Assembly (NCBI GenBank): GCA_023245935.1
Contig: JAHFJM010000001.1
Location: forward strand, 434,001-498,000
Source of the DNA: Candidatus Peribacteria bacterium
GTDB taxonomy: Bacteria; Patescibacteriota; Gracilibacteria; Peribacterales; Peribacteraceae
DNA length: 64,000 bases
Direction: 5' to 3'
Under the pieces are notes generated by a model. That model saw nothing but the letters and a program-made list of their open reading frames with translations. It ran no database searches and was not told where the DNA came from. Both the position numbers and the translations under genes were made by a program. Of the stretch, positions 30,082-32,761 are shown in pieces (position 1 is the stretch's first letter; each line of letters opens with the position of its first letter).

Positions 30082-30109
30082 TTGACGAAAAATGTGGATT
30101 TGCTATACT
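30082..30109 (+). promoter_or_regulatory. Strong promoter for a small RNA
   Basis: TTGACG (30082-30087), 16-base spacer, TATACT (30104-30109) with an extended -10 TGC just before it. Predicted +1 about 30116. No plus-strand gene follows for 2.7 kb. Confidence 0.7.
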
Positions 30110-30115
30110 GGTTGT

Positions 30116-30177
30116 GTCGAGTCCTTCGTACCCCTCTGGGGAAAAGAATCCCACCCCTTTACGGGGTGGTTTTTTTT
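30116..30177 (+). ncRNA. Predicted ~60-nt noncoding RNA
   Basis: Bounded by the promoter at 30082-30109 and an intrinsic terminator (stem CCACCCC 30151-30157 / GGGGTGG 30163-30169, then eight T). An internal CCCC-TCT-GGGG mini-hairpin (30131-30141) precedes the terminator. Too short for a protein, and I recognise no known RNA family. Confidence 0.55.
30151..30177 (+). terminator. Intrinsic terminator of the small RNA
   Basis: Seven-base GC-rich stem with a five-base loop and eight consecutive T. Confidence 0.85.
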
Positions 30178-30197
30178 GTTGCAAAAATACCGAGCTG

Positions 30198-30268
30198 GTG
30201 GACCGTGGGGGAATCGAACCCCAGCGAAGGAATGTCGAGTCCTCCGCACCAACCTGGTCACGGCCCCC
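30198..30268 (-). tRNA. tRNA-like element with non-canonical fold (identity uncertain)
   Basis: On the minus strand an acceptor-like stem GGGCCGT(G)/(C)ACGGTCC, discriminator A and encoded CCA enclose a good T-arm (GGGG-TTCGATT-CCCC). The rest is odd: a tiny CCA-GGT-TGG arm, and an 8-bp stem GCGGAGGA/TCCTTCGC with an 8-base loop CTCGACAT in the anticodon position. There is almost no variable region and the total is only 71 nt. The loop could be read as CGA (Ser) or GAC (Val). It may be a divergent tRNA, a decayed tRNA or a tRNA-mimicking RNA. Confidence 0.5.
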
Positions 30269-30317
30269 GTGCTCGGTAGTACGAACGTACACCCACGTTT
30301 TGAATTGTGCAATACGT

Positions 30318-31469: not shown

Positions 31470-32761
31470 AGCGCGAGGTACGCGATGCCTTTCTCCTTGA
31501 ATTTCTGCTCGTTCCAGATCGATTTAAGATCGTAGAAGATTCCTGTTTTCTTGAGTGCGCTCATGAAATCTTTCTCCGTGAGATTCTTCACGTACTCCGC
31601 GTGCGGAACTCCTGCGACGATCACGTCGAACGGACCGTCCTTCATCGATCCGTACGCGAAGCCGAGTTCCTGCACCTGCTCCTTCGTGAGTTCGGGGTCG
31701 TGAGCGGAGACGATGCAGCCGGAATCCGTAAGTTTTCGGATCACGTCATGGATTTTCGAGTTCCTCGTGTCCGGAATATTCTCTTTGAATGTCAGTCCGA
31801 GGACGAGAACGTTTGCGCCGAGAGGGGAAACACCGCGCTCCGCAAGTTTTTTCGTGATTTGCCTCTCGATGAAGGTCGACATCGTGTCGTTCATTTTCCG
31901 TCCTGCACTGATCACTTCCGTATGCATGCCGAGTTCTTTGGCTTTGTGAACGAGGTAGTATGGATCGACGCCGATGCAGTGACCGCCCACAAGCCCCGGT
32001 GAGAACTTGAGGAAGTTCCACTTCGTTCCGGCGGCTCTCAGCACATCGCTCGTGCGGATGCCGAGGCGATCGCAGAAGCGTGCAACTTCGTTCATGAGTG
32101 CGATGTTGATGTCGCGCTGCGTGTTCTCGAGTGCTTTCGCGAGTTCTGCGACTTTGATGTTCGGTGCTTGGTGGATGCCCGCCGTGACGATCTTTCCGTA
32201 CACTTTCGCGAGCCACTCGGTGGTTTCTGCGTCCTGTCCCGCAACGATCTTCACGATCTTGTCGACGGTGTGCTCTTTGTCACCGGGGTTGATCCGTTCC
32301 GGTGAGTAGCCGACTGTGAAATCCTTCCCGTAGATCAACCCTGATTCCTTCTCGAGGATCGGAGAACAGATTTCTTCCGTCACGCCGGGATAGACGGTCG
32401 CTTCGTAGACGACGACCGAGCCTTTCTTCAAATGTTTCCCGATTGCCGCACTGGAAGACGTGAGAGGGGAGAGATCGGGAATATTGTTGTCATCCACCGG
32501 AGTCGGAACCGCGACGATGATCGTATTGGCTTTGCCGATCACAGCTGGGTCCGACGAGTACTCGATCTGCGTTTTCTTCAGTTGCTCGGATGAGAGTTCA
32601 TGCGTCCAGTCCTCGCCGTTTTTCAGCATTTCGATGCGTTTTTTATTGATGTCGTAGCCGTACGTCTTCCATCCCGTGCGTCCGAATGCTGCTGCGAGCG
32701 GCAAACCGACGTAGCCGAGTCCCACGATACAAATGACGGGAGTGTCAGATTTCTGAGGCAT
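31466..32761 (-). CDS. UDP-sugar 6-dehydrogenase (TviB/WbpO-like)
   Basis: 431 aa. N-terminal NAD domain (VICIVGLGYVGLPLAAAFG), central domain and C-terminal UDP-binding domain, as in UDP-glucose/GDP-mannose dehydrogenases. The catalytic cysteine lies in GGHCIGVDPYYL, the form typical of enzymes oxidising UDP-GlcNAc/UDP-GalNAc (WbpA/WbpO/TviB) more than UDP-glucose. The product would be a UDP-uronic acid, a natural substrate for the locus amidotransferases. TACAAT (32768-32773) ends 6 bases before the ATG. Confidence 0.85.
   Translation of the reverse strand: MPQKSDTPVICIVGLGYVGLPLAAAFGRTGWKTYGYDINKKRIEMLKNGEDWTHELSSEQLKKTQIEYSSDPAVIGKANTIIVAVPTPVDDNNIPDLSPLTSSSAAIGKHLKKGSVVVYEATVYPGVTEEICSPILEKESGLIYGKDFTVGYSPERINPGDKEHTVDKIVKIVAGQDAETTEWLAKVYGKIVTAGIHQAPNIKVAELAKALENTQRDINIALMNEVARFCDRLGIRTSDVLRAAGTKWNFLKFSPGLVGGHCIGVDPYYLVHKAKELGMHTEVISAGRKMNDTMSTFIERQITKKLAERGVSPLGANVLVLGLTFKENIPDTRNSKIHDVIRKLTDSGCIVSAHDPELTKEQVQELGFAYGSMKDGPFDVIVAGVPHAEYVKNLTEKDFMSALKKTGIFYDLKSIWNEQKFKEKGIAYLAL

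Follow-up and report, generated by a model that had tools for sequence, protein, structure and literature searches.

Several kinds of RNA bear on the locus described here. Type VIII toxin-antitoxin systems consist of an RNA toxin and an RNA antitoxin, tmRNA carries a tRNA-like domain with a G3:U70 pair and is charged with alanine, and allo-tRNAs have acceptor/T stems of 8/4 or 9/3 pairs and a long variable arm. The nearest pseudo-tRNA that we found, tRNA-Other of Bacillus cereus, is the tRNA-like part of a larger RNA and has Fur sites (PMC3399842). tisB/istR-1 is an SOS-induced type I toxin-antitoxin system (PMC5668327).

The locus lies in a window (the whole stretch of DNA that was analysed) of 64,000 nucleotides, C6:434001-498000 of the 1.2-Mb genome G000, and comprises a gene for a predicted small RNA and, opposite to it, one for a tRNA-like RNA. 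As in tisB/istR-1, the antisense gene stands beside the target with which it pairs, here at 29/33 loci. Further likenesses are a LexA-type operator on the effector gene, a separate promoter for the antisense RNA and, at many loci, a divergent, non-overlapping layout (PMC5668327). The LexA-type box, found at 26/33 loci, recalls the SOS control of tisB and dinQ, although we have no LexA binding data. Unlike tisB, which is an mRNA encoding a small membrane protein, the target here is a structured, covarying tRNA-like RNA, and the module also occurs in convergent and tandem layouts. Both partners are RNAs and the proposed regulation is by base pairing, as in type VIII systems, with the reservation that toxicity is unproven here; we know of no type VIII effector so far that is an aminoacylatable tRNA-like RNA with a dedicated, co-evolving antisense gene. 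tRNA-Other is also a tRNA-like RNA, not an ordinary tRNA, that responds to conditions, but its fold and identity differ and its abstract names no antisense partner (PMC3399842). With tmRNA (RF00023) the element shares a tRNA-like domain with G3:U70, but it has no tag reading frame and Rfam lists no tmRNA in the window; a role as tmRNA replacement was rejected, given that a normal tmRNA is encoded elsewhere in the genome (C4:180441-180841). Its 12-bp stack of acceptor plus T stem, split 8/4, is reminiscent of allo-tRNAs, from which it departs in lacking a long variable arm, in its discriminator A and in its 8-bp anticodon-like stem. Our literature searches turned up no account of a tRNA-like RNA coupled in this way to an antisense RNA, and none of the known kinds that we came across devotes an antisense gene to such a target. 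The control logic of the module is old; the data point to an RNA-on-RNA switch that has not been described.

The small-RNA gene and the opposing tRNA-like RNA

Exploring the plus strand by direct reading, we found a promoter at 30082-30109, made up of TTGACG (30082-30087), a 16-nt spacer, TGC and TATACT (30104-30109), and a CCCC-TCT-GGGG hairpin at 30131-30141. An intrinsic terminator follows at 30151-30177, with a 7-bp stem CCACCCC-TTTAC-GGGGTGG (30151-30169) and eight T (30170-30177). The predicted RNA is about 62 nt long (~30114-30177, plus strand), its 5' end being inferred from the position of the -10 element. All three elements had been named in an earlier, sequence-only reading of this DNA and are present as claimed there. 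That reading had also placed the next plus-strand gene 2.7 kb away; the long empty stretch exists, but the next long ORF starts at 32600, about 2.4 kb on. A T-box leader was rejected because the terminator is followed by no long plus-strand ORF until 32600 and there is no Rfam match; the Rfam search reported nothing at the locus of either RNA. Counts of consensus sites between 25 and 36 kb did not rise above shuffled sequence, with 3 promoter-like sites versus a mean of 6.2 in shuffles and 14 terminator-like sites versus a mean of 13.4, and the case for the unit therefore rests on comparison with relatives. Promoters of the homologous small RNAs carry TTGAC in 25/29 and TAnnnT in 29/29, and their 3' ends have a T-run in 28/29 and a hairpin ahead of it in 28/29. 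The unit thus stands above chance, since it comes back in relatives, promoter and terminator included, and the word that it shares with the tRNA-like RNA changes together with that partner. Loss of promoter and terminator in relatives, which the sequence-only reading had named as grounds for giving up a stand-alone small-RNA gene, is not what we see, and such a gene is supported, in the absence of transcript data.

When the locus was searched for in 58 relatives, the common part of the matches was the opposing tRNA-like element on the minus strand. Including an outer stem (30271-30278 with 30188-30195), it spans 30188-30278, as judged from fold and covariation, and the predicted mature RNA covers 30196-30266 (minus strand), with an 8-bp acceptor stem containing G3:U70, A73 and an encoded CCA. 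The predicted fold (z -4.8) consists of the outer stem, the 8-bp acceptor, a D-arm of 4 bp with a 3-nt loop and, at 30224-30247 (minus strand), an 8-bp anticodon-like stem whose 8-nt loop, CUCGACAU (30232-30239), is the antisense target. A single unpaired nucleotide separates the anticodon-like stem from the T stem; the T-arm has 4 bp and the loop UUCGAUU, and ACCA is encoded at the 3' side. ARAGORN made no call for this element, and its RF00005 score of 16.6 bits is below the gathering cut-off of 29, versus 51-77 bits for the 46 other tRNAs of G000.

A first covariance model, built from 8 sequences and run on 74 genomes of the family (Peribacteraceae) with a cut-off of 45 bits, matched 33 tRNA-like RNAs in 17/74 genomes. 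The remaining matches listed reached at most 33.2 bits, the three of them in G000 overlapping ordinary tRNAs, and one genome of the same genus (G001) had no copy above 45 bits. In the alignment of the 33 loci 92.0% of cells pair and both sides change in 25/32 pairs, compared with 45.9-55.2% pairing when partners were slid by 1-3 columns, with the caveat that this alignment was itself fitted to the covariance model. A second model, built from the 33 loci, was run on 353 genomes of the class; 67 of them had matches with an E value of 1e-8 or lower, mostly outside Peribacteraceae. From roughly 100 matches we took 40 high-scoring loci of other families (L195-L234), all of which were found again and in which the fold covaries too. 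The T-loop and the AGG of the D-loop are kept among the tRNA-like RNAs, and a CACCA end is present at 30/33 Peribacteraceae loci and 33/40 loci of other families. Together, these comparisons indicate that the element is a covarying cloverleaf, as predicted from alignments, that ARAGORN and Rfam miss. Short inserted repeats break up the 3' strand of the acceptor ahead of CTCCACCA at L134 and L138. In a genome collection 19 stretches matched a pattern of tRNA-like element plus LexA-type box; we accept the 9 whose titles name Candidatus Peribacteria, Peribacteraceae or Peregrinibacteria and regard the remaining 10, without individual checks, as ordinary tRNAs that matched by chance. A viral collection gave 0 matches to the same pattern.

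Predicted antisense pairing between the two RNAs

The word that the earlier reading had seen in both elements, at 30117-30124 and 30234-30242, is real, with coordinates and length off by 1-2 bases: GTCGAGTCCT occupies 30116-30125 and 30234-30243. Mentioned there as a side feature, it proves central to the locus. It belongs to a longer antisense match of 19 contiguous pairs (G-U included), in which 30114-30132 of the small RNA (plus strand) pairs without gaps with 30232-30250 of the tRNA-like RNA, that is, with the loop, the 5' stem and the D-arm side. The covariation in related genomes that had been suggested as a check was found, the word differing in relatives yet fitting its own neighbour. 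This co-change was first noticed in convergent loci, 11 pairs were then tested and finally all 33 loci were scanned. We accepted an antisense RNA at 29/33 Peribacteraceae loci, 11 of them convergent and 18 divergent, the latter with the small RNA upstream; L120, L128, L129 and L134 have no accepted small RNA. At first the small RNA seemed to be missing from about two thirds of the relatives, but there it is divergent. An antisense run of at least 14 nt lies within 400 nt at 26/33 loci, and three small RNAs with shorter runs (L009 and L126b, 12 nt each; L125, 13 nt) were included because of their position, promoter and terminator.

As the small RNAs were located by complementarity, the controls carry the weight. 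In a 29 x 29 table of pairing energies the cognate partner was best in 28/29 rows, the sole exception being the small RNA of the window, which pairs about equally with the near-identical L002. The mean energy was -43.8 kcal/mol for cognate versus -24.1 kcal/mol for non-cognate pairs, and 0/20000 permutations reached the observed cognate sum. Runs of at least 14 nt occurred in 37/1054 non-cognate scans, in 1/33 reversed targets and in 0/31 ordinary tRNAs of the window's genome. Outside the family, a nearby run of at least 14 nt was found at 31/40 loci compared with 1/40 when reversed; 4/33 family loci and 9/40 others are without such a run or an accepted small RNA. Pairing is kept across convergent, divergent and, in other families, tandem layouts. 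Judged from genome comparison alone, these data show a conserved two-gene RNA module whose predicted RNAs have co-evolved to pair.

The tandem layout was seen at L206, L224, L228 and L229, with an antisense run of just 11 nt in L206. At these loci both genes lie on one strand: the antisense RNA begins 15-16 nt past the tRNA-like gene and a TATAAT-type -10 element sits between the two, which implies that the small-RNA promoter would overlap the tRNA-like gene. L126 (G066:C60) has two complete modules about 2.1 kb apart, each RNA pairing best with its own partner. At L197, L211 and L212 the downstream convergent RNAs seem to hold an additional stretch resembling the acceptor/CCA end of the tRNA-like RNA (such as GGGCTCCACCAGG), where the antisense RNA may have another target.

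The small RNA has a second potential contact, GAATCCC at 30146-30152 (plus strand), which matches GGGGUUC in the T-arm (30216-30222) by complementarity. Ahead of the terminator, 27/29 small RNAs have a (C)GAAYYCC-type motif that could pair with GGGGUUC, versus 143/5800 shuffles; because the T-arm hardly varies, this contact is beyond a test by co-variation. Cofolding with the finished tRNA-like fold gained only -3.8 kcal/mol in the window (median -10.0, and about 0 in L009, L126a and L139), and by this measure the cognate was the best partner in just 17/29 rows. Given this small gain, binding would need to happen during transcription or to be kinetically driven, and capture during transcription is more likely than simple equilibrium binding.

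Upstream elements of the tRNA-like gene

Directly upstream of the tRNA-like RNA, at 30279-30290 (minus strand), lies a LexA-type palindrome, GTACGTTCGTAC, of the same kind as the box in the lexA promoter of this genome, which reads TTGACC, box, TATTAT. With up to 2 mismatches, the palindrome GTACGATCGTAC precedes the tRNA-like RNA at 26/33 Peribacteraceae loci, beginning 10-12 nt before the element in 17 and 44-62 nt before it in 9; no LexA-type box within 2 mismatches was found at 7/33. The palindrome with an ACC flank and at most 1 mismatch occurred in 25/58 relatives, every one of them a member of the window's family; the reversed pattern, used as a control, gave no match. A looser pattern did not discriminate in the genome itself (14 sites versus 13 in the control). 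lexA was found in 69/74 family genomes, and 18/30 lexA promoters carry the box versus 16/295 control windows; in G007 and G010 it lies about 36 nt ahead of the lexA match. As the palindrome of lexA promoters is present on 26/33 tRNA-like genes, the tRNA-like RNA is probably SOS-induced in Peribacteraceae, an inference from operator-like sequence. At L013, L135 and L137 the box overlaps the small-RNA promoter, so that both RNAs may be damage-regulated there; in the window the small-RNA promoter is well away from it. LexA-type palindromes were also seen near genes for SSB-like (L051, L053), DprA-like (L059) and four-helix S23-type-like (L057, L064) proteins, as judged from their first residues alone.

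In the other families the upstream region shows an 11-nt period (z 8.5), and a tandem motif is present at 32/40 loci versus 4.1 in shuffles. At L195-L234, 11-bp tandem repeats of the TTTAR or GTCAG type were observed about 85 nt upstream, in place of the LexA box. We take tandem repeats of 11-nt period to be the pattern of OmpR/PhoB-type regulators, and an OmpR-type DNA-binding domain was found in 13/15 genomes searched, with one or two such regulators each. It looks as if the module had been put under an OmpR/PhoB-type regulator in these families. A phosphate regulon was rejected, PF12849 (PstS-type) being found in 0/12 genomes.

Alanine identity, mechanism and alternatives

The third acceptor pair is G:U at 30/33 Peribacteraceae loci and 40/40 loci of other families, and of the three remaining cases L003 seems to have a bulge, L136 to be misaligned and L138 to carry an insertion in the gene. 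Among 31 ordinary tRNAs of the window's genome only the 3 tRNA-Ala have this pair. G3:U70 together with A73 and CCA is the recognition signal of alanyl-tRNA synthetase, and the tRNA-like RNA is probably alanine-accepting; charging is inferred from these identity rules.

We are fairly confident that the unit encodes a dedicated antisense RNA which silences the neighbouring tRNA-like RNA, the latter being probably an alanine-type effector under LexA/SOS control; both transcription and charging are inferences, and toxicity is hypothetical. Without stress, LexA would repress the tRNA-like gene, and any transcripts that leak through would be caught by the antisense RNA, which has a separate promoter. 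Contact would start at the 8-nt loop and proceed by invasion of the 5' stem and the D-arm, with the second contact at the T-arm; as a result, the tRNA fold would fail to form or the duplex would be cut. Upon DNA damage LexA would be removed and the tRNA-like RNA would outrun the antisense RNA, be trimmed to its CCA end and, with G3:U70 and A73, probably be charged with alanine. The charged RNA might then act on translation or on the use of alanyl-tRNA, which is the least certain step. The best reading is thus a stress-induced tRNA-like effector silenced by an antisense RNA, the control logic of tisB/istR-1 without a protein, no function beyond pairing having been shown.

An RNA-only toxin-antitoxin pair is a tenable alternative, to which we give somewhat less than even weight. 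The tRNA-like RNA would be the toxin, competing for AlaRS, EF-Tu or ribosomes or mis-decoding, and the antisense RNA the antitoxin. The inferred two-lock control resembles that of SOS toxins (PMC5668327). Genomes can hold several copies of the pair, and each copy is served by a cognate antisense RNA, as are the two in L126; presence is patchy (17/74 family genomes), and two copies are interrupted (L134 and L138). However, patchiness and decay fit any non-essential element, and toxicity is hypothetical.

We further entertain, as rather speculative, a DNA-damage-induced, Ala-charged mimic that recodes Ser/Thr (UCR, ACR) to Ala or jams the use of alanyl-tRNA. It would form a protein-free stress switch, held off by a dedicated anti-tRNA RNA, across a class of Patescibacteria, with the regulator swapped between LexA and an OmpR/PhoB-like repeat operator. 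Less probable still, and in our view doubtful, is a stress-specific decoding tRNA, charged with alanine and reading NCR codons, that would exchange Ser/Thr for Ala under stress and be blocked by the antisense RNA in normal growth. The loop triplets of the family, all of the form YGN (CGA 12, UGA 12, UGU 3, CGU 3 and UGC 2 among 32 eight-nt loops), would suit such decoding, as would a U33-like position kept in 30/32 of these loops and the retained T-loop, D-loop AGG and G3:U70. On the other hand, an 8-bp stem with an 8-nt loop and no linker or variable loop is unlike decoding tRNAs, and the reason for keeping the loop may be that, as a U-turn, it is recognised by the antisense RNA. In other families, moreover, only 21/40 loops have 8 nt, the other 19/40 differing in the alignment.

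That ordinary tRNAs are the main targets of the small RNA, or that it senses tRNA like a T-box, with the tRNA-like RNA as a titrating decoy, seems very improbable to us. The second element can indeed pair with a T-arm sequence that many tRNAs share; against this, the best of 31 tRNAs reached -30.9 kcal/mol with the small RNA of the window, whereas the neighbour reached -42.9 kcal/mol. In addition, at each locus the first element tracks the adjacent tRNA-like RNA, and the small RNA ends in a terminator with no gene following. A chance unit, or a remnant duplication beside a decayed tRNA, is hardly credible: site counts at shuffled level would allow it and tRNA genes are common integration sites, but cognate pairing (28/29 rows, 0/20000 permutations) and the run-length controls refute it, and covariation inside the tRNA-like RNA, co-variation between both RNAs and recurrence in other families speak against it.

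Should the antisense-silenced tRNA-like effector be the right reading, the module would be an RNA-only switch whose controlled product is not a protein or an mRNA but a tRNA mimic that co-evolves with an antisense RNA dedicated to it. The rules of pairing are clear enough to be tested in a laboratory host. The tRNA-like RNA would represent a new class of antisense target and a natural case of a regulated non-canonical tRNA, and the pair would provide one route of the DNA-damage response in the reduced genomes of Patescibacteria.
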